Source: Bolinopsis microptera (lineage: Eukaryota; Ctenophora; Tentaculata; Lobata; Bolinopsidae). Taken from it: a stretch of 64,000 nt of DNA. The translations under genes and the position numbers were made by a program. This document shows, in pieces, positions 1 through 28,800 of the stretch (positions are counted from its first letter, which is position 1; each line of letters begins with the position of its first letter). The stretch lies in NCBI RefSeq assembly GCF_026151205.1, contig NC_087082.1, positions 11,044,901 to 11,108,900 of the forward strand, read 5' to 3'. The notes beneath the pieces are model-generated. The model made no database searches. It was not told the origin of the DNA and was given only the letters and a program-made list of their open reading frames with translations.

Positions 1-1856
1 CTCAAATCTTGCATCATAGCAATTGTCACTGCCTGAAATGCCTCATTTAAGATGGTTTTTACTTATTTATTAATGAGTCTCTGTTAGAAGGGTTGGATAA
101 GACGGACGATCTGAAATCAAAATTAATTAGATTTCATAATATCATAAAAGAAATTGGTGCCGTTACGTTCGTCAGCATAACGTTTCTTTAAAACGTCTGA
201 TCTAATAGCTTAAAATACTTCAATCTTCAAGTTTTTACATTATCAAAGAAATCAGAGGACCGAAGGATGGCCCAGCGGTTATGACAACCATCAGTTTCCT
301 CTTCCTCAGCAGTTGTTAGGTTCTCATTTGCACAGTGATGTTTTATAAGGTGAGCTATAAGTGCCTCATCAATTTGATGTCCTTCGAACTCGGCGAGCAG
401 CTCCCATATGTCCCTCAAATCTTGGAGTAGATCCGTTCCGATTTCCTGAAATCATGTGACTTTGACGTATTAATGCTTTTCATTCATACAAGTTAAAACA
501 AATTCTTCTTGTAGTGCATCCTGGGTTTGGACAGGATATGCCCGCTTAAAATATTTTCATCACGTTACATTACATAATTCTGAAAAATATATTATATTTA
601 CAATAAATTATGCAATATCACAACATTACAACCAACAAAATAAATTTAATCGCAGAATCTCAGATACAAATAATCGTAAATTAAACACAAAAAAACAAAT
701 TAAACAAGCAATAAATGTATATACAAACTATGTATAATACTGATTAAATTGATACAAAATCTAGTCTAGAATCGTCACAATAAACCTAGGCATAACCTTT
801 ATTATTGTTTTAATACCTCTGGTTTAATTAATTAAAATCGAATTATCTAAAATAATTGTTTAAGAATCTTAACAAAATACAGATTTTGTTAATGAATTTA
901 ATAACCATAAAAACCTTGTTATAGAATTCAGTTTGTTGGAGAATTGACCAGCGGTTGTTGCAGCCCCCCTCAGATTCTTCTGTTTGTTCAGCAGTGGTTG
1001 GTACAGCAGTGGTTGGTACAGCAGTGGTTGGTACAGCAGTGGTTGGTACAGCAGTGGTTGGTACAGCAGTGGTTGGTACAGCAGTGGTTGGTACAGCAGT
1101 GATTGGTTCTGGAGTGGCAGGTATGACAGTAGGTGGTTGGCTGTGTGTGTGGTCAGGACAGGTCAAGCTCAACTTCACAATATTTCCATGTTTTTCGGTA
1201 TTATCGGAAAGTAGCGTCTCCCAGGATAGATGAATGTCTTCTTTGAACGTTTCTTCGAAGTTGGAACAGATCCCTGACTCGTACATTTTAGCTACCTCTT
1301 GTTCGGTCAGTTCTCGTTTCAGGATGTTCACTTTTGTCATTTCACCTCCAAATGAATATTGTGAACCAGAAAAAGAAGCCTCCATCTTGTAGGTTTTATG
1401 ATGTTGTCCAAAAACAAGAGAGCCGGTTTTTACAGAGAACTTCGCGCCAGACGAAGAGGCAGTCCCTATCTGAACACCATCATAATATAGGGTCTTTTTT
1501 CCGCTGTTATATGCCCACGTAAGACAAACATGGTACCATTGTGAATGTGCTGGTTTCTGGCTGTGTGGGAGAATGGGAGAACCTACGATATAAGCCCATA
1601 CAAGGTTATCAGAGAGAGTTATTCCATCATGATGTTCAATAGTCTTGTAGTGAATCCACCCTCCTATATGAGATATGGCGCTAAGCTGCTTGATCCAGGC
1701 ACAGATGGACACCTTTTCCTCCAGGGGTGACATATCCGGGGATATCATTATGTAGCTTCCAATGTCATCTCCAAACTTTAGAGCAATATGGGGCTTGTCA
1801 GAGAGGACTGTCGTCAGTAAGGGAAGTATGAGGAGCAAGATTCTATACGCAGGCAT
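1..1856 (-). CDS. Secreted LamG/pentraxin-like protein with TTAVP stalk and tandem C-terminal exons (partial)
   Basis: Starts at the ATG at 1856 with a signal peptide (MPAYRILLLILPLLTTVLS). A LamG/pentraxin-type beta-sandwich follows, seen from W-x-H-V-C-L-T-W, YYDG and the closing FGGEMTKVNILKRELT segment. About eight TTAVP pentapeptides form a mucin-like stalk. The first exon (915-1856) can splice in phase 0 (AAG|GTTTTT) to an exon at 239-445 (TTTCAG acceptor), and a further homologous exon starts at 32 and runs off the window. Exon 1 ends in GCNNRWSILQQTEFYNK and exon 2 in GCHNRWAILRSSDFFDN, so the C-terminal module is repeated. Unspliced, exon 1 reads 23 more residues to a stop near 843, and exon 2 stops at 227, so short isoforms are possible. 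Role inferred: secreted or surface lectin-like or adhesion protein. The module after the stalk is not recognised. Confidence 0.7.
991..1110 (-). repeat. Coding 15-bp minisatellite (TTAVP stalk)
   Basis: About seven to eight near-perfect 15-bp copies of gcagtggttggtaca (plus strand). They stay in frame with the lectin-like gene and encode Thr-Thr-Ala-Val-Pro, a likely O-glycosylated spacer. The number of copies probably varies between alleles. Confidence 0.9.
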
Positions 1857-3169
1857 CTTGTGAGCGGTTGACGGTGTTTAGGAGGAATTCTGACTTGTTT
1901 CTTTGAGAATTAACTGTCGTTAGAGGTCGTTCACATATTATGATATTACGTTATCAATTTTTTGACAATTCTTGAAACTATTCTTTAAAAAATTTAAATT
2001 CGTACTATTCTAGAGATTGAAAATGAAAAATATGTTGATTACGTTATCAACATGGTTATATGCTCCAATTCTCCAAAGTCTAAAGTGCTTATTTCAAGAA
2101 TTACTTTAGAATTACGTTATGTTATCTGGCGATAACATTCGTCAACCTCTCGCCGTGACCATCCTATTCTCCAAAATTTTTGCCTGGGCTCAATTCAATA
2201 ATTTTGATCACAAATACATTTTTAAACAGTAATTTTGTCAAAAACCATGAAAATGTAAAAAATAACTATTAAACCATAAAATGATAAAATAAGAATTGAC
2301 TAACAAAATTGCCGAGTTGTTTGCGAACAAACCGTTCACACAAAACAAATTGAATTGCGAACGTGGCAGCTAGATAAAGATAGCGAAAACACGGTATGTG
2401 ACTGCCAGGGGAGCAACTTAGCAGCGCTTCAATACACAATTTATCTGCTGTGAACCAACTTCTTATACTTTAGATTGCAGGTGCCAGTGTGATTTAAACC
2501 GTCGGGCCCAAGATTTAAGTATCTATAGTAACAATTATTTCAGATTAAGAGATGTGGACGTACATTGTAATCTTATAAAAGCGTGTCCCCAATTTGTAAT
2601 TAAAGATAAAATTCATCTGAAAATGAGTAAAACATGAGACGAAAAAGAAGCGTTCAGCTCATATAATTATAGGAGAACTGAGAATTAAAAGTAACGCAGC
2701 GATGTTCTTAAAATAACGGTCAAGGGCAAACCACTTGGCATTGTGAACTCTTGATCCGGGATCGAGATGTAATAACTTACTGACGGGCGGTTCCCATAGG
2801 TGTGACAGAAGATTACCAATAACTTCAGACCCGCATAATATTATTGAGCTGGTAAGGGTTGGTCAATCCTGATAACAACTAGATATGCGAGGTACCTACT
2901 AGACAGTTATAGAGCGAGATGTTGCATTGATATGATCTCTATCAAGATACTGATCATAAATTGTAGCACGAACAAGTAATTCTACTCTTAATCATATCAC
3001 TACGGCAAGGAAGCTCTGTTGGTTAATCCGCCAGTTTACACCATCGGGTTCAGACGTTGCGAGTAAAATCCCGTCGTATCGGTAGTAGTTCCCAAAAAGA
3101 TAGCGAACCAAAATACCACCCTTGCGCAGTACGTGCTAACAAAATAATTGAATATCGACCTCCTTGATA
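1857..3169. other. Intergenic, no gene seen
   Basis: AT-rich DNA upstream of the lectin-like gene, which would hold its promoter, and upstream of the LRRK gene. No ORF or convincing exon was found. Any additional 5' exon or UTR of LRRK could lie here but I could not identify one. Confidence 0.5.
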
Positions 3170-4538
3170 ATCTGTTACATGTTACATACATGTTACATGG
3201 TAAGGTCTCCTCCTAGTCGTTGGAGTGGCCTGCATCACACACATCGCGTTGGCGGCGTAACATATGTCTCCACTGTACTCGGTTGGTAGCCAAAGCTTCT
3301 GTTGTGTCGTTGTCGATGTTTTCAACACCTGTAAACTTAGCAGCATCTTCGAGTACGCAGGACTTCCAGTTCTTACGGGGTCTGCCCCTTGACCTCTTTC
3401 CATAATTTGGCTTCCAGTTCAACAGAAACCTCGTTAGTCTAGAGTCTGGCATTCTAACTACATGTCCATACCAACGTAGCCTGGCAGCACTGATGAAAGT
3501 CTCAACTGACTTGATGCCAGCCCTCCTGAGAACTTCGTCGTTGGTCACATGAAAGAACCATTTAATCCTAAGTATCCTTCTCAAGGAGGTTTGATGGAAA
3601 ACCTCGAAGCGTTTCATCTGCTTTTTGGTGGTGTTCCAGACTTCAGCTCCATACAACAAGATGGTGAGAACAGCAGCCCTATAGATCCTGATCTTGGTTG
3701 GAGTCTTTATAGTTCTGCTATTCCAAATGTTCCAGAGCTGATGAAAGGCGCCATTAGCCTTCTGGATACGGACATCCAGGTCTCTGTTGATTGTCCCATC
3801 CCCACTGATAGTTGCACCCAGGTAGACAAAGTTGCTAACCTGCTCGACGGGTTCACCCTCAACCGACAGCTCAATACAATCATCCTTGATGAAAGGTCGC
3901 TGGGAGGCGCACTTGCTTACAGCCATGCATTGGGTCTTCTTTGCATTTATTCTGAGCCCAGCGTAGGAGCTGTAATGAACTAATAGATCAGTTGATTCCT
4001 GTAGGCCTTCCCCTGAGTTGTCCATAATAGCCATGTCATCAGCATAATCGGTGTCCAGAATGACCTTTTCCTCGACCGTCTTCATCTTTTTCTGCAGCAC
4101 TGCGCCCTGACTGATGATCTTGTTGGTCTCAGCCAGAAATGCAGAAAAGTTTAGGCAGAAATTAAAGACAGGAGGTGCTTGAATGTCACCCTGACCTGTG
4201 CCTGAATTAACATCAAACCAGTCTGTCAGCTCCCCATTAACCCTCACGGCACTCATGGTACCCCCAAAAAATGACTGAAATATTCTGACATATTTTTCAG
4301 GCAGCCCATAGTGTCTCATACTGCACCAAATAAAGTCCCTTCTGATAGAATCGAACGCTGCCCTGAAATCGACAAAATGATAATCTGTGGAGACTATTAT
4401 TGAAACTAAAATCATGAAAAGGTGTCCACTGTCCACAGGGCTTCGTTGAAGTGGCAAGACTCTACATCCATGAATTGACGACGACAATGTACTAGCGATC
4501 GACCTCCGACCGACCAGCCTTGTCTGATCTATGACCAC
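3170..4538 (-). mobile_element. 5'-truncated non-LTR retrotransposon (LINE), RT domain
   Basis: An open frame of about 441 codons (3213-4538) carries the reverse transcriptase half of a LINE ORF2. Visible motifs are HFVDFRAAFDSIRRD (motif A), GTGQGDIQAPPVFN (motif B), catalytic YADDMAIM (motif C) and LGATISGDG. The C-terminal RLRWYGHVVRM segment is typical of RTE/BovB-like and related LINEs. The endonuclease and the start of RT are missing; the first 60 or so residues look scrambled, so the 5' end is near 4540. After the stop the element ends in a short TGTAACA/TGTATG tandem (3170-3199), as many LINEs do. It lies antisense just upstream of the first recognised LRRK exon. The clade is a guess; being a LINE is near certain. 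Confidence 0.9.
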
Positions 4539-4618
4539 TTTTTTAGTGGGTTCACTCTACTTAACTAGCTACAATCTACATACATCTCTTTTCTGGTCCT
4601 TCTAATTATTTTCACATT

Positions 4619-7600
4619 ATGATTTATATCAACTCTTACAGGTTGCAAAAGACGGGAATATGCCAAGTAGTACGAAAACTTATTCTCGATGACAACACGG
4701 AAAACCGGGACATAATTTTTAGTGGACTTTATGTGTTAGAGTATCTAGGTAAGTTATCCACAAATGTTGGGGTGTTTATTCACTCATTTATAAAAAACAA
4801 TATAATTGTAAAAGACAACATCATTGCCCGATGTAATTGCTATGGCCAGTTTACTGGTCATCTGGTGTTTCGGTGTCCCTAATAACAGGAACTCTAACTT
4901 TCAGACCAATACGAAGAATGTTCGGAATCTGAAGCAGTAACCTGGTCCGACTACATGTTCTCACTGCTTGAGTCAAATTGTTGGGACGACGAGAAGAAAA
5001 AACTGGTTGAAGTGGCTTGTGCATGTCTTGCTAAGGTTTGGGAAATGTGCATACAAAACCAAAACTTATGATCTCAACTTTAAAATTCACCTCTGATTTT
5101 ATTTTAAAAGAAATTGTAACTTTATAACTTGATAACATATGATGCAGATTGCAGCTGTGATAAGTTCTCGATAACTGCGATGAAATAAAAAAAATTTAAT
5201 CTCAGCACCATTCACCCGAGTCCCGAATACCTATTCTCAGCATATACTGAATTCTAAACAGATCCAATTACTCTCGCCTAAAACCCCACTGCTTCCCACA
5301 TCTCACCACCACTACTCCATTTTCATCGGGCAATAAAAAAGGATATGATAAAATCCCAAATAAATATATTCCGCTTTGGTCCGCAGTTGCACGAAGTCAG
5401 AGAATCAGTGATGGTATCGGAAGCACAGTGCATGAACCTTGTGCACGTGATCTTCCTTCACAAAGAAAACATACCTATATTTATTGGGAGTTGTCAAGCA
5501 ATCGCCGAGATCATCCAGAAAAATCAGACCTTCGCTATGACCTTATTTGACAAGGGGATTCATCTACAGGTTTGCAGATCCCTAACCACATTTTCCTTCC
5601 AAACTTTCTCTTTTCAGTGACCATATTTTAGTTAAGATTAATGAAAGATAACGATGCACCTATAATAATCTGTATACATGTCATGGTAGTCATGGTTACT
5701 CATCTTCAGGTTCTGAAGTTTATGAAAGACCACCCCTCCTCTGATGATATTCAATATGTGGGATGTCTCTTCATGATAAACTTCCAGCTTAAATTACCCA
5801 GTGATGTCAGACAGAGAACAAAGTTTGATTCGAGGTTATTTTTGTTTTATGAACTATCGGACCCATAAGAATCCCAATGTTTGTAAATTCACCGCCAGTT
5901 TTTAAAGGTACAATTAGAATTTCTCAAAGAAATGGGTTATTATATAAGCTCTTTTCCAATCTACCAAACATGATAGATTAGGAGTAATTAATTAATTAAT
6001 TACCTCTCCTACTCAGTGGCACGTTCAAGGAGCTGATCACTCTGTTCTGCGACAAGAGACACGAGGTGGTGATCAAGGAGCTGTGTCTGGGAGCCATTAC
6101 TCTTCTCCTGCGGGACACCAGTGTGGTTAACATGTGCCATGATACCCCTTCGGTAGGTAACTTACTGAAAATATTATCTTATGGTCACATGGTTAATTTT
6201 ATAGATTGGAGAATTTGGTCGGATAGCCATCTGGAAATTTCATATTTGTTATGTGAGCGGAAATTAGATTTTACTCAATTAAGTTTGTTTTATTGTTGAT
6301 GCAATACTTGAGATCAAAAATCTTAAGATTAAGATGAGTTAAGACTTAAGATACCCATAAAGAGTTATACCACGTCACAATATCACTTAACAATATCACT
6401 TGTATCAGTTATACAAGAAGATCCTGACAGCAGCAGAGTTGTATGGCCTGGTAAGCTACTTGAACCTTGTAGCTATGATGAGTATCACCCTTCTCTGCAA
6501 CCACAGTAAGATCTGCCAGAATTCATGATAAATCTGCTGTCTAAGTATAGTATTTTTAATATCACAAATAGTTAAAGAGAGATTTTAATGATGCGACTAC
6601 AGTCTCATCTAGTGGATACGAATGCTTTGGCACTGTGAATCCATTTCTATTACAATGTAGAAATACAAACTGTAACTTTACGTAAAGCTGGAACTGAAAG
6701 CTCTCAACTTGCCCCCCAGGAAAGATAGCACATGACCTTCTATTCAGTGGTCACGGTGGGAAGAAAGATAACGGCACTCTATCTTTTGTAGTGATCCTTA
6801 CCCGCAGAAATCAGAAGTACAGAGAGGTTTGATAAATCTCTATATTAATGAACTAAATCTCTAGATGAACAAATTCAAAGTTTAAGTAAATTAGTTAAGA
6901 CATATTCAACCATTCATGATTCAGTAACATAATCAATAAAACAACTACCGACTAGTACGAACTGTCATCAACGATTGTTATAAAAGGCAATTAAGGCACC
7001 TTAATTACCTTAATTACCTGTTTCTCAGTGGGTTGTAGCTGGGCTGTACACAATGTCAGCTCTGCTAAACTGTGATTTAGATCCTAACGTGGCGGTAGAA
7101 GGGGTACCGGGGGCCCTGACCATGTTGCACGACCTCTTCAACGAACACTCTCATGATATCGAGATCATCAAATCTGTACGTTTCGTCGCGTGTCCTTGTT
7201 CTCCAGTTCTCGTGTCAATTGATAAGAATAAATGTTTTCGGTTTGCATCGTTAGTGGATTGTTCCTATGAATATTTTGCTAATGACTTTATGCCCTATAA
7301 TAAATTGCAGATGATTATCAGTAGTATATTTTAAAGAGTCACCATTACCAAAAGTTTGTTTTGCAGGTAATAACAGCTCTGAGATCGTTCTGTGGTCTTG
7401 CCAACTCTGTAAAACTCCAAATCGTGGAACTCTTTCTACCAATGACACTAGATCTGTTCCGGGAATCCAATGTAATATTTCACCTTGTATAAGACCCATC
7501 CGCCCATCGTTGCATAATAATTAATATTTACATTATTATCAAAATGGATCAGTTAGAGATAACATCAAATTTTTATGTTTCAAAAGCCTTCATCCGAATC

Positions 7601-7814
7601 AAATTTGACGTTATGAATTTATTTGAATCAAATCTCTATAATTACATATCAAGCTCGAAAGATAAACTAATAGCAATTACTTTAATAATTCTCTCCCACT
7701 TCTCAGGACGAGCATCTAAGTTATCTGATCTACAGTTTCTGGGGTGCCCTTGGTACAGACATACAGGTGCTCTCTGCAGCTCTCAACAAAGCTATTGACT
7801 TAGGAAACGCTGTG
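4619..7814 (+). other. LRRK: LRRK N-terminal armadillo-like exons 1-10
   Basis: Ten short exons encode about 420 residues of helical, Leu/Val-rich repeats, for example LYGLVSYLNLVAMMSITLL and ELCLGAITLLLRDTSVVNM, spaced like ARM/HEAT repeats. All splice sites are GT-AG and the phases agree from exon to exon. This matches the N-terminal ARM region that separates LRRK2-type proteins from LRRK1. Inferred role: scaffold and Rab docking. Confidence 0.75.
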
Positions 7815-10800
7815 GTAAGTACTGATACTGAGACACTTTTTTAGGATGACTAGAAGAATGAACATTCCTCATTCCTACTAGTACTGATCAATAGTACAAT
7901 GAAAATAGCACTCTGCAAATGATGTTGTCACCATTAGATTGCTGAATTTTTGTTGGTCTTGGTTACTCTTTGTGATTGTAAGCTCTTATGCTCCATGATA
8001 TCCTCAGAGCGTACAGATAATATTAGAGATGAACGCCAATGTGAATGTTCCCTATAACGGTAAATACCCCCTCATAGCAGCTGTCGAGTCCATGGACCCG
8101 AGGTAATGGAATTACAATTTTAGCTAAAACATGAGCATCTCTATGGTGCCTAATGCCTTCCAACTCATTTGTTTTGAAATCGATGAAACTCAATTAGTTT
8201 ATGTACGTGATTATTCTATATTTTATTTTTATGTTTAATTATTTGTTCCAACAGTATCGTGGAACATATTCTGTGGCAGAACGTCGAACAAAAACAGGTT
8301 GAAATAGCCCTGAGCAAAACAACAGCCGGTGGGCCTGGTCTGAATCAAGTGAAGATAGATATCTTGGGCTATTTACTAAGGGAAATCGGGTACAGGTCGC
8401 AAGGTTTGTACCGAATTAGACATTGTAAGATTTTATACTGATAATTGCATAATAGCCAAGGTTTAAAAAACAAATGACTTCCAGTTTGATGAAGAGAAAG
8501 GTTAAAATGAATAAGCAAATCTCGTTAACTTTTTCTCCAAAAATGAAAACTATTTTTGCCATTAGTTGTGAGAAATGGCAAATATATACAGATCATTAAG
8601 TAGCTGTGTTATAGTTTGCAGCACGATTATGCGTGGTATGAAATGGATATAATGAGTTAATAACATGAGGCGATAAGAAACGAGTAAATTTCAAGTTTAA
8701 ACCTTCGATAAAAGTAAAAATGGATATCAACCCAACAAAATCGTATCACTGATATCATATTGTAACGTAAAAATGGCATAAATATAATACGTTTAACTTA
8801 TCCGTTTAGAAAAGATAAAAATTAAAAATGTTGGCTGTCAATTTGATAGGGGTTCCCGGTTCATATTCTTCAGCCGTCATTGTTGAGTTCATCCTTTCCA
8901 AGGCTAATCAATTGACAACCTTTAGGGACCATTCACTCATTTTGCATGGCAAATACTTCGCAAGCTTCCTCGCCTTTTTAGCCCCTCGGGACACACTTCG
9001 TTTGCAGATATTATGTGAATGATGCTGGTTTCATCAATCATCATGAATGATTCACCATTTCAGATTTTCAACCTCGTGTTACCGCTCTCTATTTCGAGGT
9101 TAAATTCATATTCCAAGCTGAAATACACTGTTAGATTTACCCACCCGTACGGCGTAAATAAAAGTAATGAGTTGAAGATTTCGAACATCCAAAAGGCCCC
9201 ATGACCCATTGATGGCCTCATGATGAATGAACTAAAATCTTCAGTTTTCATGAATGATGTTCATTTTTAGTTTCTGCCGCCCAACTCAAGTACGGTTCCT
9301 TGACTTGTATCCTCTCGCGATATTCCAGTTCCCGTTTTCTTCGTCTTTACCTCCAACTCCTCTATCTCCTCCATTGTCATGTACGTTTCGTTCACTTCAA
9401 ACTGGTGGATCACACTGTCGATTCTGATTTCTGCTGGCCCTCTTCGTCTGATTCAAAATGTTAGTATTATTTTCTAAGATTGCTGTAGAGTGTAGACAAA
9501 ATGATAACAGGCAAGAAAATTAATTTTAACCATGATAATCATACAAAAAAGCTTTTTAAACGTATCCTTATTCCGAAGCTATGCGTACTACTCACCCATC
9601 GTTGTATTTTAGTTTTCTGACGAGAACAACGGCAACTGCTACAAAAAGTAATAATACCACTATCCCACCAGCTGACCCACCAATAACCAGTGGGGTCTTA
9701 TTCCACTTCTTCTCCTGGTACAATAACATGGTTTTAACATGGTTTTAACATGGTTTTAACATGGTTTTAACATGGTTTTAACATGGTTTTAACATGGTTT
9801 TAACATGGTTTTAACATGGTTTAAGATGATGTTAGGGTGTGCTCATTATTTAGCAATACCCAGGAATCTGCGAGCTAGATGCTGTAATTGGTTGTTGGGG
9901 AAGCTTGTGATCAAGAACATAAACCAACCATCTGATTGATATAAGCTAAGACTGAAACTAGGACGTACAGTGATAAACCTGAGTATAGTAGTCAGTATAC
10001 CTGAGTAGGTGGCACGGGGGGTTCTACTGTTGTGACCTTGCGTGTGGGTAAATTTGCTACGTTACAGAGAGGTTGATCATCGCAAAATAACACATCACTT
10101 CGTCTGCAGTCCTCCCCTTTAAGGGACCTGAAATTGCACAGTTTATTTATTTCTTGTTGCTCCTATTAGCTTTAAGAAGTACTTCCTTTCTTCTGATGAT
10201 ATGTTATCTATATCTAATAGCATCAATTTAAAGACGTTACAACTTACCCGACGAAATTACAGACATTTTCATAGGAAGGTAAGGCAGCGTCAATACCGGG
10301 AACTTTTGAGTAACACAATCTGTATTCAGTCAGTACATCAGGTTCCGGCTCTAAAACTGCTACAACACACCTGAGCATATTCTGTTAAAGTATTAAAACT
10401 GGCTGGTTGACTGGCTGGCTGGCTGGCTGACTGACTCACTGACTCACTGACTGACTCACTGACTCACTGACTCACTGACTCACTGACTCACTGACTCACT
10501 GACTCACTGACTCACTGACTCACTGACTCACTGACTCACTGACTGACTCACTGACTCACTGACTCACTGACTCACTGACTCACTGACTCACTGACTCACT
10601 GACTCACTGACTCACTGACTCACTGACTCACTGACTCACTGACTCACTGACTCACTGACTCACTGGCTCACTGACTCACTGAATCACTGACTCACCGACT
10701 CGCTGACTCACTGACTCACCGACTCACTGGCTCAATGACCCGATATTTATAATTTTACGACTTACTGTGCTCTGCAATTTTGCTCTAAACAGTACTTTAT

Positions 10801-13800
10801 CCGCTCCCCACCTGCGTCGTAAATCACGCCCTGATCTATCGTACAAGTATAACACTTTAGTCCGTAACCCTGTCAAAAATTAAGTACGTGTTAACGAAAT
10901 AAATATAAACCATACAATACAAGTGAAACATTATATAAAAATGTTTTAAACTAGCGCTAAACAGAGATAATCAGAAAGAAATTTCAAGGTCTTAAATATA
11001 ATTATGTAAATATACATCGAGTTTTCTAACCTTTTTCAATACAGACAGTAGAAGCAAGCACACAAACGCATTCATTTAGAAAAAATTCATTTAGTAGAAA
11101 ATGTGGAAAACCCTCACGGTCTGAGTTCATATCTACAGCGCTATGTCAGTGGAATACCTTCCCATATGTTGAACCGTAAATTTGATACTATAAATGATAA
11201 GCTCTTATCTCTCCGTGCACCCATTGTTTGCCAGTTACTAGCATTTACAAAAAAGGAGTACAGCTTCATAATATCCAGCTAGTATATTAGGAGGACAAAA
11301 GAAAAGCCCGGCAAAAAAGCTCATGATATCCTGATTTAAAAGCGGCTATTATTACCACAATATGTACCAGGTTATTTCTGTATCAACAGTTAATTCTGCT
11401 TATCTGTGGTGTTTTTCTGGAGAATACTTTACTGAAGAATGCGTTTTTATATTGGCTGATTATTAAATTATTTGTTCAGCCGTGCCCTTACATAATGTTA
11501 ATCTAATGTTAGATAGGACACAGCATAAAATCTGGATTACCTTACCTTACTTGGATTGGGCGACATCTGTCCGACAGCGACATCTGTCCGAAAGCTGAAT
11601 TAGGGATTTCGGACAGATGTCGCTGTCGGACAGGAGTCGTTTTTGGCGACATCTGTCCGAATTTGGATCATATTGTAATTTCGGTTCACATTCGTATTTC
11701 ACAAGCTCACAGGTAATCTCGTGACGTTCTAAAGCTGATGTGATCGCTTAAGATCTGATCCATCGATACGTGATTGACTAGTTGAGAACAGGATCGTGCT
11801 AGCCGTACCCTAACAAGCTGTCGATCACATCACAGGACATGAGTACATATAGGACAGCAGTATGGAGATCACTTATCGCAATCCACAATGGCAACCAATC
11901 TTCAGTTTATCCCTGGACGCAAACAAGGCTCGGACAACCCTGTCCTAAATGGCTTCAGATACGTCTTCGACAAGCGAAGAGACGACACCTCCTATTGGAA
12001 ATGTTCGGATTTCGAAAGGGTTGCAGAGCCCGCACCTTCAAATCCGCACCTAATCTCTTCCATCAGCTCTTCACAGTCCATGGCCTCTTCCCTGACGGCT
12101 GGCACCTCCCCCTCTTCTATGGACTCCTTCCTGGAAAAACGACGACCCTCTACCGCAACCTGTTCGAGGAGATAGACACCTGGGCTTCTGGGGGCTACCA
12201 ACCACAATCCATCCTCATGGACTACGAGCTCGCCATTCACAACGCAGTTGCTTCCGTGTGGCCCTCCACTACCAGACGAGGATGTAACTTCCACTACAAG
12301 AAAGCCCTCCTGAAGCATGTTAAGCAGACCAACATCTGGGAGGAGTACCTGACTCCAAACTCTCCTGTTCGGGATTTCTTCGCGATGACTGGAGCGATTG
12401 CCTACGTACCGGAGACTGACGTCCCTCGAATCTGGAGACACCTGAAGCCCCTCCTTCCTATAGACATGGCTGAGATTGCTTCATACTACGAAAACACTTG
12501 GATCGGGACATCAACCACCAATCCTAACTTCGCTCCCCACATGTGGAATCAACACGAAGCTGCACAGATGAGGATTCCTCGCTCATCCAACATCGCAGAA
12601 GGTTGGCATCACGGATTCCATTCAATGCTGTCCTGCTCGAAGCCCACAATTTGGAAGTTCCTTGATTGCCTTAAAGCAGAACAAGCCCTTACAGACGTGA
12701 AGAAAACCAAGAGAGACGGGCGGGAACTACCTGAGCCACGTGCACCCAAATGGATCCGTTATGATCGACAACTTCAGAGAATTGTAGATGATTACGACAA
12801 CTACAGCAACCCTATGGATTTCCTTAAAAGCTTAAAGCTATCGGAAATTTGACTTTGCTTTAGATTTGATTCTGTGATATTGTATTATATTGAATTAATT
12901 TATAATATTTAAATAACATTGAAACTATTGTTCAATTTATCGACATCAAATGAAAATAAACAGTAATAGTAAACTATGGCTCAGATCACATCTCAAATTG
13001 GACATGTTACGTATACAATTTAGCAAGTAACAGTTTAGATCATGTCTCTAATTGGAAATGTGTCGTATTGAAATCAGGTCACAATTTCGGACAGATGTCG
13101 TTTTTTTCTGGTACCCTGATTCGGACAGATGTCGCTGTCGGACAGATGTCGCTGTCGGACAGGAGTCGTGTTACCCCTTACTTGGTTATTCGACATCTGT
13201 CCGAATCAGGGTACCAGAAAAAAACGACATCTGTCCGAAATTGTGACCTGATTTCAATACGGCACATTTCCAATTAGAGACATGATCTAAACTGTTACTT
13301 GCTAAATTGTATACGTAACATGTCCAATTTGAGATATGATCTGAGCCATAGTTTACTACCACAGTTTATTTTAATTTGATGTCGATAAATTGGACAATAG
13401 TTTCAATGTTATTTAAATGTTATAAATTAATTCAATATAATACAATATCACAGAATCAAATCTAAAGCATAGTCAAATTTCCGATAGCTTTAAGGAACAG
13501 GTTGCGGTAGAGGGTCGTCGTTTTTCCAGGAAGGAGTCCATAGAAGAGGGGGAGGTTGCCAGCCGTCAGGGAAGAGGCCATGGACTGCGAAGAGCTGATG
13601 GAAGAGATTAGGTGCAGATTTGAAGGTACCGTCGACTACCCAATGCTCCGCGTCCACCATATGATTTGCGTTCTTAGGAGTCCCCCAAAGGAAAGATCAA
13701 CGAGTCCGTTCGTCCCATCCAGAGTCCCAGAGCATCATTGGTTCGTTGTCGGTAGAGAGGATGTAGTTTGCAGGAATGGAGAGCGTTTCCAGATCTCTCG

Positions 13801-16800
13801 GGTTAGAAGGGTGTCTGTTAGCTGCTTTTCTGCTTCTCTGTACCATTCTGTTGAGGGATGACAGCTGGCAGCCAAGCTTTGCTCTAGATTCGTAACCCAA
13901 TCCACCGACTGCTTCAGATACGAGGTATTTCGTACGTGGACGGTCGTTTCAGCATGGTGGACAGGGTGAGTGTGGTCAGGAGTAGGAGTGATCAGTTGTC
14001 TGTCCACGGTACGGATGCGGGCTCTGCAACCCTTTCGGAATTCCGAACATTTCCAGTAGGAGGTGTCGTTACTTCGCTTGTCGAAGACGTATCTGAAGCC
14101 ATTAAGGATAGGGTTCTCCGAGCCTTGTTTGCGTCCAGGGATAAACTGAAGATTGGTTGCCATTGTGGATTGCGATAAGTGATCTCCATACTGCTGTCCT
14201 ATATGTACTCATGTGATCGACAGCTTGTTAGGGTACGGCTAGCACGATCCTGTTCTCAACTAGTCAATCACGTATCGATGGATCAGATCTTAAGGGATCA
14301 CATCAGCTTTAGAACGTCACGAGATTACCTGTGAGCTTGTGAAATGCGAATGTGAACCTAAATTACAATATGATCCGAAATTCGGACAGATGTCGCCAAA
14401 AACGACTCCTGTCCGACAGCGACATCTGTCCGAAATCCCTAATTCAGCTTTCGGACAGATGTCGCTTTCGGACAGATGTCGCCCAATCAAATGAAAATAA
14501 ACAGTAATAGTAAACTATGGCTCAGATCACATCTCAAATTGGACATGTTACGTATACAATTTAGCAAGTAACAGTTTAGATCATGTCTCTAATTGGAAAT
14601 GTGTCGTATTGAAATCAGGTCACAATTTCGGACAGATGTCGTTTTTTTCTGGTACCCTGATTCGGACAGATGTCGCTGTCGGACAGATGTCGCTGTCGGG
14701 TAGGAGTCGTGTTACCCCTTACTTGGTTATTCGAGGACGATATCTTATCGATTTTATAACTTCATCTAGTCAGTGGTGCAACAAAGGGCCCCGCACACCC
14801 CGTACACTTCGTACACTTCGCACACCCCGTACACCCCGTACATCCCGTAACGCGAAGGAAATATTGGGGCGTCCAAAAAAGACCTAGCCTTATTTTAGGA
14901 CATAAGAAAATGTGTATAAGGGCGCCAAAACCTTTCGGGGGGGGGGGGGGGGGGGGGGGGGGAGAGAGGGAGAGAGGCGCCAGATGGTATTGTTACTCAC
15001 TGCATCCATTATTGTAGGCTTGATCAATGGTTCTTGAGAAATCACGTGATACATGATATTGTAGGAGATTATTTAAATTTAATAAAGTAAAATAGTGACT
15101 GGCTAGAAATTATTGTCGACCTGCCGGACCCGTAACTTGTTTCAGCATCTGATATATAATTTGAATTAAATTTTCATAAAATCAAAAAAACGATGTATTA
15201 CTTCTGTTTCCTGCGGAACCACTGATTGGACATTCTTATGTTTTGAAGGAGATCCTCAAAAATATTAAGCCGGTGAAAAGTATGATCGGCTAAAAATAAT
15301 GCGGTGAAATTGTTAATCAGGGAATAATTTAAACAGTAGTAGTAAACTAGCGATGGGGTTTCGATAGGATGTTACATTTACAGCCGTTTGCACCGACCCA
15401 ATTTAAGCCAACAAAGTAAATATTTTCAGACCAACAAATCGACTGGTGTAACAGAAACTTGGTCTCTCTTGAACCGGAGTGGTTATTCATCATTATCGAC
15501 CTTAATCACGTACAGTAAGTGTGTTGTTCTAGAGCTTAATCACATACAGTAAGTGTGTTGTTCTAGAGCTTAATCACGTACAGTAAGTGTGTCGTTCTAG
15601 AGCTTAATCACGTACTGTAAGTGTGTTGTTCTAGAGCTTAATCACGTACAGTAAGTATGTTGTTCTAGAGCTTAATCACGTACTGTAAGTGTGTTGTTCT
15701 AGAGCTTAATCACGTACAGTAAGTATGTTGTTCTAGAGCTTAATCACGTACTGTAAGTGTGTTGTTCTAGAGCTTAATCACGTACAGTAAGTATGTTGTT
15801 CTAGAGCTTAATCACGTACAGTAAGTATGTTGTTCTAGAGCTTAATCACATACAGTAAGTATGTTGTTCTAGAGCTTAATCACGTACAGTAAGTATGTTG
15901 TTCTAGAGCTTAATCACGTACAGTAAGTGTGTCGTTCTAGAGCTTAATCACGTACTGTAAGTGTGTTGTTCTAGAGCTTAATCACGTACAGTAAGTATGT
16001 TGTTCTAGAGCTTAATCACGTACAGTAAGTATGTTGTTCTAAACCTATTTTTTCTTTCTGCAAATTCCTTGTTTAATTGATTTTACACTTCAACTCTCAC
16101 CTAACGAAAAGTCACCCCTTAAACGAGGGACATGACAGCTCAGTAGGCTGTGCACTATTACTCAGTAGGCTGTGCACTATTACTCAGTAGGCTGTGCACT
16201 ATTACTCAGTAGGCTGTGCACTATTACTCAGTAGGCTGTGCACTATTACTCAGTAGGCTGTGCACTATTACTCAGTAGGCTGTGCACTATTACTCAGTAG
16301 GCTGTGCACTATTACTCAGTAGGCTGTGCACTATTACTCAGTAGGCTGTGCACTATTACTCGTGTATTACTGATCACATGTATATCTCAGTTACAGTAAC
16401 CCGGTGAGTCATGGTCGTAAGATATCCCTGGCTAGTCGGGCTGCTAGTGTTAAGAAACAGTGGGTCTCTCTCAGGGGTGTGGAGCCGTCCACTCTCAGCG
16501 TGTAAGTTCTGTTGTGTAAGTTTTGTTGGGTAAGTTCTGTTGTGTAAGTTTTGTTGTGTAAGTTCTGTTGTGTGAGTTTTGTTGTGTAAGTTCTGTTGTG
16601 TAAGTTCTGTTGTGTGAGTTCTGTTGTGTAAGTTCTGTTGTGTAAGTTCTGTTGTGTAAGTTCTGTTGTGTGAGTTCTGTTGTGTGAGTTCTGTTGTGTA
16701 AGTTCTGTTGTGTGAGTTCTGTTGTGTGAGTTCTGTTGTGTGAGTTCTGTTGTGTAATTTCTGTTGTGTGAGTTCTGTTGTGTAAGTTATGTTGTGTAAG

Positions 16801-19800
16801 TTCTGTTGTGTGAGTTCTGTTGTGTAAGTTCTGTTGTGTAAGTTCTGTTGTGTAAGTTCTGTTGTGTGAGTTTTGTTGTGTGAGTTCTGTTGTGTAAGTT
16901 CTGTTGTGTAAGTTCTGTTGTGTGAGATCTGTTGTGTGAGTTCTGTTGTGTAAGTTCTGTTGTGTAAGTTCTGTTGTGTAAGTTCTGTTGTGTAAGTTCT
17001 GTTGTGTAAGTTCTGTTGTGTAAGTTATGTTGTGTAAGTTCTGTTGTGTGAGTTCTGTTGTGTAAGTTCTGTTGTGTAAGTTCTGTTGTGTGAGTTCTGT
17101 TGTGTCAGTTTTTTTGAACCCATCACATTTTCATGACAACGATTTTGCTATATCGGAAAATGTATACTTTGTAGTAACTCACCTGTTAATTTGGTCTGAC
17201 TCCCTCTAACTTATATCAGTGAGTTCGAGATGTGGAAAGGTGGGGGAGGTAGGGGAGCAGAGGAAGTAGGAGCAGGGGTGGAGCGGGTGTCGGAATCAGA
17301 AAACGAAGAATCGGATATTTCAACTCCACATCCCTTGGAGTCCAAATCTGGAATTTTAGATGAGCTTCATAAAGAGCTTTGCCGAAAGGTCTGTCTATCA
17401 ACGTATTCTCTTAAAATAATCTCTGTAAACATGTTAAATTATGGGTAACTCTAGAGATCGTCCACATATTACATAAGACAGGGATTTAGAAAAGCTTTCG
17501 GTAGTGTAATTTCTAAACAATAGCTATGTATTAGACAGCTTACGGAGGGAGTTCGAGTCTACGGTACTAAATAAAATGGCTTCCGTAAAAACGGCTCCTT
17601 ACGTAAAAACGGCTCCTATAACTAATGATCCCCGATGTAACGTGTCTCGTCGCCTGTAGCAATATTTACCACCAGCACCGCTTGTTTCTTGTTTTTTTCC
17701 ACAGGTTTGTTGTCTGATTTCTGTCAGAAGCACTATTTCGTTGCGGTGGTTGCGGAATTATTTTCCGTGTGTTTTCTGCCTTCTTGTGTGTAATTGTGCA
17801 ATTCAAATGTGAAAAGCTGAGGGATCGCACAATTTGCAATATTTTGCCGCACCTAAATGGTACCTCTGATGTGTGTCTAGAGAAATTTTTACGACAGTGC
17901 AGTCTGGTTCGAAGGTCTATTTCTCACGGATCTTTTGTATCAGGCAGTTTGACCTGATTGTACGAGTCATTTGTTATATCCAAATAGGTCAAATTTGTGC
18001 AGAATAATTCAACTTTCTTTATATCTTCTTATTATCTATGAGAATCACTCTGACGTTGATAATTTATATTTAAAGATCTATTCACTATTGTAGATATGAC
18101 TTATGAATGAGATGTACATACCCTGTTTCATTTCATTCCTTACCAGTTAGGTACCTTATCTTAGCCTACTGGTATGGCTTCTGTTTAAACACGATATTCT
18201 ATGATCAATATTCAAAGGTCCCTTCAAAATTAAAAGATCCCTTACACTCCTGTACTCTGTTTCAGTGATCGCACAAACATAGATTTTTCATAATTGTCCT
18301 CAGAGTCGTACCGAGCTGTTAAGAGTAGATTACGGTACGTGATCAGGTGGTCACAAGAACAGCGGTCTGTGTGTCAGGTTCCTGACATCTGTTCCCTGTC
18401 TAGCTACTTTGAGGGTCATTCGTTTTGTGAGTTACAGAAATTATCATAGTCAGGCGTCACGAGACTAATTGTGTAGTTTCTGTTTATAGGACCACTTTTT
18501 AACTCCATCTGTCCTGTAATTACAGTGTTACTTCACAGTTTAGCTGTCTTGTTACTTCACGTTCCACAGCTGCCAGGAGTTACTTTATAGAACAAGGTTT
18601 AAGTTTGTTGTGCAATATTGTGCCATTAGTCCACCGCGACCGTACTGGGACACGTGGAGATATTATAGTTGCGTACTGAACCGCGCACCTCACTATGGAT
18701 ATAATGTTACATAACATTCCGTAGCGTGGTTGTTGTGATTGCTTTACCTCTCGTCGGTCCGATTGGTTTCTTCGACCAGCCTTTCCAGCGATCTGTTTGT
18801 AGGTTAATTTTATCTGATTATAAAGGAATTCTGAGTTTTATAAAGAACTTCAAATTGACCGCTCACGTGGTTATATAGACTGCACGTTACAATCAGTACG
18901 GTCTCAGTATTTGCTTGATCCATCTAAAAAAGCCGACTTCTCGTAATTTTCTTTGGTTGGTTGCTATTAAATACCGGTGACAATTTAATATCGTGTCTTT
19001 GGTGCGTGAACAAAGCAGATGTAAAGTATCCGAATTATTCATGGACAGGTGTTCGGGATTATGAATAACTGTTTGACACCTTTCATGTTACAACTCGGCA
19101 TTGAAACGTTGCGGCGCTCCGAGGTGTCACAACACCAACCCTCTCTAAATTATATTTATAGATCGTCACCATGACAGGGACAGTTGAAGTTTAAGTAAAG
19201 CTTGTTAGTGTTAGATTGAACAGGGCGGTTGTGAAGTTAGCGTGAACGTTTATACTCGGGTAACAATAGGATCTTGTTTTATTGATAAAGGGTGCCGAGT
19301 TGCATCCAGGTGTCTAAAACTACTGTCATATTTCACTTTCCATATATTTTGACAGTTGATGTCGTCTCCAAATTGGCGTTTATAATCGCTCGTTATTGTT
19401 GAAGAGGTTCATGCTCTGGTGCTTTCAGATATATTTATATTTGAGTCAGCCTTCTGAGTTCTGTCACTTTTATTGTATATTTGTGACAGGATGATTCAGA
19501 TTGCTTACCTTAGATTCTCCCAAAGCTGGTATTTATTTTATAGTTCATATTTCTATTGATATTTATGGATCTTGGAAGGTGTAACAACTGATTCGTCCAT
19601 AGACAGGTATCATTTGCCTCCATTGCATTTTGCATGGTATTTTCCTTTGTCTGGATCTATAATGTATGGTGCTTTGCTGTCGGTCCTAGTATTTTCACTC
19701 AATCTGTTCTATTCTGTTGATACATAAATGTTGCCTCAGTTTTAATTTTAGGCTAGCCGCATAGAATATGACTGTACTTTTACAATTTTTTAAAAGCATC

Positions 19801-22800
19801 TGCCACATGTACTTGTGAGTAACCGAAGGAATGTATATCTGAAGACACAGTGAATTAATCTTAAAGCATACTCCAAAGTTAAACTTTGCAACGCTTTTTT
19901 ACATATTACATTCAATATTCATAAGCAGGAACCCGTCTAACCCTAAAGTGGTGTCAAGACTCAAGAGACTAAAATAAATATTACCTATTTAATTCGCGTT
20001 TTTGACACCACTTGAGGGGCCACATTTTGGGCACTAAACTTCTTATTCCTTGACAAAATTTTTATTTTTACATGCTGATTTGAAGGCCATTAAAGTATTT
20101 GAACCAGTCAAAAAAGTTTAAGTTGTATATCTTTTTATATCGTCTCGCTTTATAAATGTTAGATAATTGAACAATTATTATTTAGTTAAATTGTAATATC
20201 AACTTTCTAAACCTTATATCAATTATACCCAATAGATCCATTACAACCGTAAGAAATATGTACAACTTCTCTTTAATGGGAACTGTTACCACCACTGACC
20301 CTAACTTTCCTCAACCGGTGAGATCACTCGACATCGTCTACGGCACTGTCTACATTATGGGCGGAGTTCTTGGTCTCCTCGGTAACTTCCTCAGCCACCT
20401 CTTCTTCAGGAGCAAGTCACGTGACCTCAGCAGCATCCTCTACCAGCTGATAACGCTGACTGACTTCCTCATCAGCTCTCTTATCCTCCCGTGCGGGGTG
20501 TGTTTCCTCCGGGGCCGAGATCCGGGATTCTACAGCGATCCGGTGTTCTGCAAGATGTGGTCAATATTGTGGTACATGGCAGCTCGGCTGAGTGTGTTTC
20601 TGGTGGTGGTGTTGACTGTCTCCAGAACCGTGTCCATCATCAGACCCCTCAGGGCCGTTTCTCAGAAGTGGGTTATCTTCAGTATCGCCGTCTACTTTAC
20701 CTATCTCCTCTTGCAGTTCACTGCGTATCTCCTGATGAAAGGGATTTCTGTGCAATTTAGTTCGCCGAGAGGAAATTGTGCGATCTTGATTGATTCAGAT
20801 ATAGACATGTCAAATGTTATTCGCTTGCTGGAGGCATCTATGGTTATCGCGATTTGGTGCCCTGTCTTCATCGTTATCATCAATAGTGCCATCTCAACCT
20901 GGGCGCTTTGTCTAAAAAAGCACTTTCTGGACACGAGAAAATCCCGAATAGGACAGATCAAACTACGAGCCTCTATGACGATATTGATGTTTGGACTGGT
21001 TTATCTGATCTTTAACGTTCCCCTAGCTGTATATCAGATCCTTCAAACAATTGACATTAACCTCCTCTCGTGGGACCACGGTAACGAGTATTTCAACTAC
21101 TTTGGTGTGTTTTGTGCGTCAGGATGTGTCATCCTTAATGCTGCTGTGAACCCGTTTTTGTACTACTGGAGAATGGACAGGTTCAAAGAGTTTCTACTGG
21201 ACAAAGATTATAATCCTCGCCTGTCACGGCTGATAACAACTAGGCTTCATAATCGGGATGATAGGGAACTTACTGAAGTTTGATAATGACAATGTGGATA
21301 CTAATCGTGTATTTTTACAAACTATTTGTCCTTTCTCTAAAATGTTTCTTTGTTACTAAAAAATAATGAATATTCGATTTGATGTCAAACTGTTTATCTT
21401 TTCATTTGTAGTCCTTATTATCCTCTATTTCATTCGTCAACAATCAACATACAAAAAGTTGACATAATTGAAACACTTTTGGCGGCAACTCAATGTCTCC
21501 TGTCAACCTCCAGTCATTCACAGATGACCTCAATGAAGTGTTGTGATGGCGCCTACAAACTACATCCCCCATTTCATAAATTTCCGATGAATATTTCAAT
21601 GATTTATTTATTCCTCGTCGCTAAATAATTAATCTCCACAGTCTCTGGAGATTGATAAGAGTGCGAGTTTACGGGAGATGAGAGCTCTGAAGGACCTGTC
21701 CAGTGTTAACCAGACGTTGAATCAAAACAGGAGGAGGATTGGGTCTGTGCCAAACAGGAACATTTGCAACACTATTAGAATTATCAACGTTTCTAACAAC
21801 AGGATTACTTCCATCGAACGATTAGGTACTGTGGACAGATATCAGCAGATAAGTAATTATCACAAGTTGGCCCTATTTACCCTTATAGTTTTAACGGGAA
21901 AATGCTAGGGTTTGCGGATATTTTGGTAATTTTGATTAATAACCTGGCTGTGGGCCATTTCAATGAAATGTTGTCAAAAATATGCCGCCTTGCCAGGAAC
22001 CAACACTTGCTACAAATTAAAGATTGATATCAGATTTAGTTTTCAAGGTTCACTGGGAAAATTTCCTATTATGGTCTTCGAAAACGTCGTCCATCAGTTT
22101 CGGGGAAACAATATTACACGCTAGAAAACATTTAAAAACCCAAAGATTTTGTCGAATTACGGCAGACAAGCCCAAGGTCAAAACAAGCCCTACCAGTATT
22201 TTTGACCAGCGCAGGAATCTAAACTAGCTATTTGTGCGTGAAATAATAAAATTCATTTAAGAATAACGTGTCTGCATCACGATTCGCGTCTCATAAGCAC
22301 CTCCAATTGCTCCCTTCATCGCTCTACTCGTGTTCCAGGAAGCTGCAAACCCATTATGATGAAGTTGGGGGACGTAACAGAGCTGAACTTTAACCACAAC
22401 CAACTGAGGTCTATCCCTAGTACGTTTGGGAAGTATCTCCGGAGTGTTCGGGTACTGGACCTGTCCTATAACAGACTCACTTCCTTCCCTGTCTGTGTGC
22501 TTAACATGCCTCTTGTTGCACTCAACATATCTGATAACGAGGTGTGTTATTTAGGTTTATTAATTACTGGGTTAATTAACGGTTAATTAGGTGCAATGAT
22601 AGATCACTAAACTCTGAATTTTACTTAATTTCTGACGACTAGTAAACGTATGACCGTTAACTAATAAAAGGTTTGGAATTGTAGTGGTTTGAGGAATCAC
22701 ACCAGATTTTCCGGTCAGATTTCGACTGGAGCGCAGCCTACTCACGAGGAAAAGGGACACGAATCCGATGACCCGTTTTGTCCCAGTCTCAAATCTCTAG

Positions 22801-25800: not shown

Positions 25801-28800
25801 CTAGATCTTGAATGTCGCGTGCCCCACGGGGATTTGATTTATTCATACAATTTATTATATATTGGTTCCAAAGCCCTTATGGGTACCAGCAAAAACTGGT
25901 TTTCAAACAAACAAACAAACAAACAAAACATTGTCACTGAGTGTGGCCTATTTGGGAGGAAGGGTTCTGGTCCTATGGGGATGTTGTTGGATTGATCGTC
26001 CCTTGCGAATTCTTCCGCTAGTTCTTTACCGTATACTCCTTAATGTCCTGGAACGAAGTCCTACTTGATGTGAATACCTAGTGAGTTGGTCTGAGATGTT
26101 CAGAACGAACCTGGAGTTAAAACTGGTGCTGTTAAGCGCTTTAAATGCAGCCTGGGAATCTGAGAGGAATTTATGATTGATGGAGATCCTAAGTTATCAT
26201 AAGTCCAGATACTTGCCATGTATAACGCAAATAGCGGGTATGATTTCCTCAATTAACCTGAAGGAGGAATGTCAGTCCTGAAATGTTACCATGTAACGTC
26301 GAGCTAAAAAAATGAATCAAAAGATTGAGTAATGCATTCGATAAACATTGTATGTTCTATTTGCAACCCCTAAGCATTGCATTGATGTTTATTCCTGATC
26401 CGGTTAGCTTTGCGTCTCAGAACTAAAGAGGTCCACTATGCTTTAGTGAGCTATGCTCGCCACCAGGGTACTGTAGATCTAAGGGTTCCCCGTGTAATGG
26501 GGCAGGCTGTGAAAAAGCAGCTCTGCAGGATGTCCGAGATGAACTGTTTTCGAGTGTTGAGATCTTCCGCTGTAGAAACTGAATAGAACCAGTAAGGGTG
26601 TCAGTCAAACTCTGCTGATACTAGATGATTGTAGAGCGTCCAGTCACACTTCAATGAAGAGTGTGGCAAAGCTAACCCGGTCCCCTGAAAAGTGGTTACT
26701 GGAGGAAGAAGTGCCAGGAATTCTCGCTATCAGTGTGTCCTCGTAGTCAGAGTTTAAATCCCTAACTCTGTCATGAGCCTGTGTCTAGCGTGTGTCAGCC
26801 CTTACGCATTAGCTGCCTTAACTGAAAAGACCTGAAAAGTGGTTACTGGAGGAAGAAGTACCAGGAATTCTCGCTATCAGTGTGTCCTCGTAGTCAGAGT
26901 TTAAATCCCTAATTCTGTCTTATCACGAGCCTGTGTCTAGCGTGTGTCAGCCCTTACGCATTAGCTGTTTTAACTGAAAAGACCTGAAAAGTGGTTACTG
27001 GAGGGAGAAGTGCCAGGACTACTCAATATCAGTGTGTCCTTGTAGTCAGGATGAGCGAATTGGAATCCCTAGCTCTGTGGTGGGTGACTTCGATGGGACC
27101 TGAAAGCTGAAAGAGAATTTCCTGGTGATTTAGTAGCTCTTAGAGCTAGGTATCTGTGTCCAATGTATCGTCATTTGTGTGTGTACTATCTTGTAACCTG
27201 ATATCTGAAAGAGAAATTTCCTGGTGCTTGGTAGCTGTTAGTGTTGACTTCCTGGTTCCTATGGGAACTTTGAGTTGGCAAGGCCCAACCTTTGTACTCA
27301 ACAAGAGAGCACACCACCCGTTAGTGCCAACCAGGCCACACCACGTGGAGGTTCGGAGAGGATTTCGTGACCCCATATATACTGGCACTTATAACAGTGG
27401 TCTTTAAGTGGAAGTTAAATTTCAGTTTTAAATAAACGAGTGGTCATCGCGCGGAATTTGAGTTCAAGGTATGTAATTTACGGATGACTCGTACTTACAA
27501 GTTATATATAATCTGAATCTAAGTTAAAGGTCTCCTCCGCAGAACCTGAAAGATATGGACATATCTATAGCTATGATGAAGAAGACGAACATCATAGTAT
27601 ACCTCCGCCAGAAACTCATGAACAGCAGATCACATTTCAGGTGAGTCATCATCTATGATTGCGAGGATTGTGAAAAGTTACACATGCCTATCAAGACGTG
27701 TTACCTATAGTATTTACTACCGATATGTTAATGTTATATTTACTCAACAATTGTAACCATCAGCTTCTAACAAGGCATCTATTTGTTCTCTTTGATCTTG
27801 AAAAGACAAAATTATTTCTATGCCAATGATACACGTTAATTTCGTCTTCAGTTACTGTATTCGTGAATAACTAATATTTCGAAGCACAATTTAGTATTTA
27901 TCCGTGATAATTCTCATTCCCAGAGAACTTTAGATTTCGCCCTAGTCTCGCTTTTCTAACATTATGGAGCGTGAGTTTGTGCCTAATTTCAGAATAAAGC
28001 TGTTTGTGGTGGGGTTGGAGGAGAGAGGGAAGACCAGTCTCTGCTCGGCAATCATCAGGAAACAGAGGGATAAGTCCCCCAATATCGCTACTGTTGGGGT
28101 TGTAAAGACGGACTGGTTTTACAGAGGTCAGTCTCTTTTCATGGATTTCTTCTTGCAACCAACTAAGTTTTTCGTTAAACGAATGTTTTTTATTTTCTTT
28201 CAATGTTCATGCATTTACTCCGAACTTTAGGAGGGATGGAGAATTTGATAACTATCTGGGATTTCGCGGGTCAGAAACAATTCTACGTGACTCACCAGTG
28301 TTTCTTATCTCAGAGAGGCGTTTACCTTGTTGTATTCAGTCTCAAGGTTAGAATCTTAAATATCAGCTCTTCGCTCTTCATATACATATATTTGGCAATG
28401 GCTGCGCGTTAATTGATACGTTGTAGAACCTATTTTTGTTTTTGAACCTGTTGTTCGATATTTTGAATTCGAATAACATCTTTTGTTCTGCAGAAAGGAA
28501 TGGAAGAGATAGATAGAATTATACCCTGGCTGCATACCATCCAATCTCGCTCTCCAAACGCACACGTGATCCTGGTGGGCACTCATCTGGATACTGCAGG
28601 TTAGAAACTACAACCAATCAGAATACAGTATACACACTGGATACTGCAGGTTAGAAACTACAACCAATCAGAATACAGTATACAGCATCACACATACTTC
28701 AAAATATTATGTCGATGCCACAAAATAAATTGAGCTAAATTGGCGATAGTCACCACAAGATAAAATAAACGACAGAGTCCAATTATTTGTGAACCGCATT

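Follow-up and report, generated by a model that had tools for sequence, protein, structure and literature searches.

A donor-spanning minisatellite of the mirage type, probably grown from the exon 13 junction of a ctenophore LRRK-type gene

Within a 64,000-nucleotide stretch of the Bolinopsis microptera genome (hereafter the window), the exon 13 donor of an LRRK-type gene forms part of the first unit of a 34-bp minisatellite, and every one of the 16 units carries the same donor hexamer. We judge it likely, with a probability of roughly three in four, that this array is a 'mirage'-type minisatellite that grew from the junction of exon 13 and its intron by tandem duplication, and that its presence is probably tolerated because the donor nearest the exon, the first of the 16, remains the one used in splicing. 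Two further donors of the gene are also repeated, and similar arrays adjoin apparent exon ends elsewhere in the genome. Coordinates are collected in Table 1.

The 34-bp array and the gene that carries it

The gene model was drawn up manually, with acceptors, donors and open frames as guides, and was later corrected with an alignment to a predicted protein of the related ctenophore Mnemiopsis leidyi (ACHWQZ_G018118, 2606 aa; P0121 in Table 1). This protein was the best of the three returned by a search with region 277–700 of a 2243-aa version of the model, with 73% identity over 98% of that region. The corrected 34-exon model is a single frame with 0 internal stops and shares 1861 of 2234 aligned residues with P0121; of its 33 exon junctions, 31 are ungapped within four residues in the alignment. 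Both Pkinase and Beta-prop_LRRK2 domains score above their cut-offs in the last exon, and the best 60 of 202 matches in a PDB search with the N-terminal half of the model fall in the leucine-rich repeats. A direct join of exon 13 to the exon at 17220 was rejected when the alignment revealed exon 14 between the two.

P0121, as a predicted protein, may rest on the same reasoning as the hand model, and joins corrected with its help do not count as independent agreement; exon 13, including where it ends, had been modelled beforehand. Exon 13 and P0121 share 25 of 27 residues, and across junction 13/14 the nine residues LNHVHYSNP are identical in both species, which makes the first of the 16 donors the conserved one. 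The first-pass annotation, which had taken the first copy for the real end and donor of LRRK exon 13, is borne out by these matches.

For the array itself, TRF gives a period of 34 at 15501–16041, with 15.9 copies, 95% matches, 0% indels and a score of 970. Shifting the register three bases to the left yields 16 whole units, in agreement with the 16 donor-bearing copies first described; unit 1 starts with GAC and the other 15 with GAG. Five of the 34 columns vary among the units, and GTAAGT is invariant (16/16). Only the first donor gives an in-frame join, as had been proposed: translated from the sequence, all 15 later donors would read CAG TAA immediately. The earlier expectation that later donors would add 34n nt with a stop holds for the stop but not for its codon, given as TAG: the stop is TAA and is formed from letters of the donor itself. 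The unit differs from a recursive (ratchet) splice site, AG|GT, in that it reads ACAGTAAGT, where AG and GT share one G.

Table 1 Features of the LRRK-type gene and donor-motif arrays that start at apparent exon ends elsewhere in the genome (positions are those of the window).
Feature	Position	Strand	Exonic bases	Basis
LRRK-type gene, 34 modelled exons, gene start not included	4642–33389	+		2259-aa frame; P0121 match; domains
Exon 13	15430–15514	+		phase fits both sides; 25/27 residues as in P0121
First (true) donor of intron 13, GTAAGT	15515–15520	+		junction residues identical in P0121
34-bp array, 16 units	15498–16041	+	17	GTAAGT in every unit; unit 1 has 17 exonic and 17 intronic bases
22-bp array, 10.1 copies, intron 13	16139–16361	+		TRF; not donor-derived as far as seen
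Exon 14	16391–16501	+		translation matches YSNPV..STLSV of P0121
14-bp donor array of exon 14, 44 units including degenerate last	16500–17115	+		GTRAGT in 41
Exon 15	17220–17388	+		model and P0121
Exon 25, ROC region, donor duplicated	28494–28599	+		model and P0121
50-bp repeat, 2.0 copies, 100% match, over exon 25 end and donor	28587–28684	+		TRF
Array L031			46	AAA_8 of dynein, E 2e-5, just under cut-off
Array L036			25	P0124, unnamed protein, 84% identical, same end point
Array L045			27	WD40 of MABP1-WDR62, E 1e-4, under cut-off; PDB WD-repeat chains, best E 9.4e-10
Array L041			24	open frame, 0 Pfam matches
Array L049			25	open frame, 0 Pfam matches
Array L040			5	open frame, 0 Pfam matches
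Array L039			4	weak F5_F8 match, E 0.048

Several other features lie in or near the gene. An imperfect 17-bp repeat of 2.9 copies (window 29221–29269) is found inside exon 27 from its first base. An intronless frame for a rhodopsin-type receptor (window 20186–21283, plus strand; 7tm_1, 48.2 bits) is nested in intron 15 on the same strand. The 7-kb intron 12 (region 11513–14514) contains a MULE transposase frame (11803–12852; PF10551) and, on the opposite strand, similar-looking pieces (13462–14208), and a 447-codon open frame on the minus strand (window 3213–4556) resembles a reverse transcriptase by eye.

Donor repeats in the same gene and across the genome

The donors of exons 14 and 25 are repeated as well. 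Exon 14 ends in STLS plus GT, its donor being unit 1 of the 14-bp array, for which TRF gives 43.6 copies extending to 17110; the exon 25 donor has a 24/24 match 50 bases downstream. The account of an array at exon 13 alone was therefore correct for that array and incomplete for the gene, and other parts of the genome hold similar arrays. Its proposed check ended at 16501, the end of exon 14, with the exon 14 donor array unmentioned there. The four later units tested, of 43 at exon 14, lead to an immediate TAA, and the exon 25 decoy donor leads to TAG.

GTRAGT occurs 16 times in intron 13 and 41 times in intron 14, and at most three times in each of the other 31 introns. With the extra units removed, and in intron 13 the 22-bp array too, these introns measure 165 and 116 nt; the 30 introns in which no donor is repeated have a median of 165 nt. 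We thus attribute the exceptional size of these two introns to the extra units, and the LRRK case shows introns lengthened by array growth alone. Inside the gene, repeats were found at 3 of 1159 exon positions vs 287 of 2002 intron positions.

We searched the whole Bolinopsis genome for comparable arrangements. Three GTAAGT motifs with 16–46 bases between them gave 8199 + 8858 matches, against 1744 + 1377 for the reversed motif, in counts that are dominated by long arrays; the background in 264 kb, both strands, is 186 for GTAAGT and 166 for the reversed motif. Paired CAGGTAAGT gave 181 + 316 = 497 matches genome-wide and its reversed form 0 + 0, the reversed control 9-mer being rarer at baseline (0 vs 1 in the 264-kb sample). 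Among the matches listed, the first 2.6 Mb of contig C1 contain nine distinct GTAAGT arrays (plus strand), and the first 3.7 Mb five control (reversed-motif) arrays (both strands). The flanks of those nine GTAAGT arrays, and of 13 distinct CAGGTAAGT arrays among the matches listed, were examined by eye and with translations. Seven of these 22 arrays start at an apparent exon end in the same orientation (Table 1), and proteins support the exon ends at L031, L036 and L045. Apart from the three arrays described next, an exon at the first copy was not recognised in the rest of the 22; two of the arrays (L038 and L044) extend beyond the piece examined.

Three arrays outside the seven also touch exons. 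L028 borders a CDK1/2-like exon (E 1.2e-42) at its donor. On the other strand, L034 repeats 36 exonic bases with 0 Pfam matches, and L033 repeats 62 exonic bases in an LMF1_C exon (E 1.7e-28). At this last locus (G000:C1:1290730–1291450) the minus-strand exon appears to be flanked by minisatellites: behind it a 65-bp repeat that spans the donor, of which six copies were seen, and beside its acceptor the 14-bp GTAAGT array.

Four other loci were noted. In the 37-bp array of L047 (G000:C8:7268220–7268960) the unit end TTATTTCAG is followed directly by GTAAGT, so that acceptor and donor seem joined in a single unit, much as at recursive splicing sites. The unit CAGGTAAGTAA, little more than a perfect donor, is repeated every 11 bp for more than 500 bases at G000:C8:17904441–17904966. 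At L029 (G000:C1:304300–305050) a 39-bp array whose units carry CTAAC, a branch-point-like word, is judged by eye to lie immediately upstream of an acceptor that belongs to an open frame on the minus strand. Finally, the 10 kb of L023 (G000:C6:5000001–5010000) hold two arrays with a 13-bp unit (588–3801 and 5542–8717), both of about 250 copies.

A general preference of repeats for exon junctions found little support. The 138 arrays in a 264-kb sample, made up of the window and a further 200 kb, occupy 11.7% of its bases, and donor hexamers are not enriched in them: GTAAGT is present in 3 of the 138 units vs 2.6 expected, and GTRAGT in none of the 96 arrays that lie in the 200 kb beyond the window. 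With a 24-base test that misses the 14-bp array, a nearby copy was found at 2/32 donors and 0/32 acceptors of the first model vs 254/3000 random window positions, and at 2/33 donors and 0/34 acceptors of the corrected model vs 371/4000 random gene positions. Coding-like flanks stand beside arrays in 19/189 cases vs 394/6000 random windows, on a weak score that catches 20% of the windows in an independent GPCR frame, and their frequency further from arrays is similar (16/187, 25/185, 15/183 and 19/179). When the first units of the 17 arrays in the gene were placed at random, they spanned a mean of 0.42 donors, and three or more in 0.63% of trials, a figure computed after the three donor repeats had been seen. 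Based on these negative or weak results, we take mirages as one product of a minisatellite-rich genome; a donor hot spot is possible.

Donor choice, origin of the array and alternative readings

For pairing with the U1 5′ end, we obtained duplex energies of −7.3 to −7.5 kcal/mol for the 16 donors of the 34-bp array and of −1.2 to −12.2 kcal/mol for the 32 donors of the then-current model. The 15 exon 13 decoys equal the true donor in U1 pairing, and donor sequence thus gives no reason why the first should win. Competing-donor experiments often favour the acceptor-proximal donor, a preference that, combined with equal U1 pairing, predicts decoy use and so speaks against the view that the first donor is chosen. 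We consider that the extra donors are probably ignored, given that a message spliced at one of them would carry a stop codon, and that the first one is most likely used. The acceptor would pair across the 85-base exon 13 with the nearest donor (exon definition), and the first donor would be selected in this way. Since use of a later donor would add 34n bases starting with an in-frame TAA, the predicted product is a nonsense message. With the first donor selected, the array would be near-neutral, one of the three roles named in the first-pass annotation beside a U1 snRNP binding platform and unproductive splicing.

Equal donors could instead compete, such that some transcripts, in a proportion dependent on copy number, are spliced at a decoy, acquire an in-frame stop and undergo degradation, and the length of the array would then set LRRK output. 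Several observations agree with this idea: (i) the decoys stop at once at exon 13 (15/15, TAA), exon 14 (the 4 tested of 43, TAA) and exon 25 (TAG); (ii) U1 energies are equal across the exon 13 donors; and (iii) donor hexamers are intact in 16/16 units of the 34-bp array and in 41/44 units of the 14-bp array. However, the intact hexamers may only reflect young, homogenised arrays and, with 5 of 34 columns variable, the absence of variants in the hexamer is unremarkable. No observation links copy number to expression, and amphioxus mirages are reported, in the available parts of the two sources, not to disturb regular splicing (PMC3087553, PMC3902484). We therefore regard such a splicing dial as unlikely. 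It is quite unlikely that, as a wider form of the idea would have it, minisatellites have repeatedly originated at 5′ splice sites throughout the ctenophore genome, independently of amphioxus, and that trains of stop-bearing decoys of equal strength are heritable, fast-mutating dials of gene output.

The order of unit types bears on how the array arose. Classified at four variable sites, with the GAC/GAG column excluded, the units follow one another as abcdededeefecdee, with blocks repeated. The exon's own type occurs once; four of the five other types are one step away from it, and its summed distance to the other types is the smallest (6, next 8). This hub position vanishes when the GAC/GAG column is included (zero one-step neighbours), since GAG is common to all 15 other units. 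The pattern fits outward growth from the exon copy and then block duplication, as far as one sequence and four sites can indicate. The junction of exon 13 and intron 13 would have been duplicated in tandem, by slippage or unequal exchange as we infer, and growth of the array would have lengthened an existing intron.

A search of the animal's own genome (264,652,675 bases, 232 contigs) for a 29-base stretch of the unit with up to three mismatches located at least 15 sites, a lower bound, and 15/15 of these lie inside the array. Introner elements occur in many genomic places; the 34-bp unit, among the sites found, occurs only within its own array. A dispersed element was rejected as an identity for the array, no further copies having been found in this lower-bound search. 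The suggestion of the first-pass annotation that the array was probably seeded on the exon–intron junction gains from both results, the hub position of the exon unit (at four sites) and the unit being found nowhere else in the genome.

Each unit also carries donor and acceptor-like letters, as might be expected if the array were older than the exon end, for example a dispersed repeat or introner-like element from which that end was recruited. We consider this very unlikely given the same two results, and the junction residues conserved in Mnemiopsis imply that the exon end is no recent recruit. There is a slim chance that the array is an assembly artefact or was wrongly sized, as long tandem arrays commonly are in assemblies; the irregular order of unit types and the same design at several unrelated loci of the genome speak against it, although the copy number may still be off. 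Least credible of all is that the CAG found in 12/16 units acts as an acceptor and, with the next unit's donor, adds 33 bases (11 codons) in frame as an expandable coding repeat: 5 unit pairs inspected of 15 possible are stop-free into exon 15 (in the earlier exon 13–15 join), but the Mnemiopsis protein is without such an insert, 3 of the 4 variable sites within the 33-base reading alter a residue (by inspection), and an open frame of 33 bases is not rare by chance. Growth from the junction, with the first donor retained, is thus the reading we prefer.

Comparison with known systems

No report of a ctenophore mirage or donor minisatellite was found among the open-licence papers listed, and the available part of PMC11184263 does not mention tandem repeat, minisatellite, satellite or intron. 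An intronic minisatellite linked to splicing is described for C. elegans in the available part of PMC4039745, where CeRep25B lies near alternative splicing; unlike the LRRK arrays, it is a 24-base repeat family at many places and does not consist of copies of the host exon's own donor.

In both the LRRK gene and introns born by tandem duplication, the duplication carries splice signals. Such births of introns were reportedly described by Zhuo in 2007. The available part of PMC4974935 adds a potato RdRp intron derived from a tandem duplication or array. In contrast to these cases, the LRRK joins fit the Mnemiopsis protein and the arrays lengthen existing introns, with no new exon or intron shown.

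The closest likeness is to the mirages of amphioxus, tandem repeats across an exon–intron boundary that are bordered on one side by the genuine exon, contain decoy splice signals and have units from tens of bases up to about 160. Those of Adh3 were reportedly described by Canestro in 2002. As judged by the available parts of two papers, mirages also occur in the globins BflGb6 and BflGb9, with unit lengths of 10–72 bp in Adh3 and 150–160 bp in the globins (PMC3087553), and in PGBD5 and TnC (PMC3902484). The first unit of the LRRK 34-bp array holds exonic and intronic sequence of one junction, an authentic exon stands at the cluster edge at exons 13, 14 and 25, and the unit lengths of 34, 14 and 50 bp fall within the reported range. 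In terms of sequence, the 34-bp array is a mirage by the defining feature of that class. It differs from the amphioxus cases in its host, a ctenophore, in affecting three donors of one gene and two consecutive introns, and in having up to 44 units. Introns 13 and 14 together present 57 donor hexamers with coding joins conserved in a relative, a natural experiment on donor choice among equals. The phenomenon is hereby carried from lancelets to a comb jelly, which suggests that mirages arise wherever minisatellites form frequently and splicing retains the first donor.
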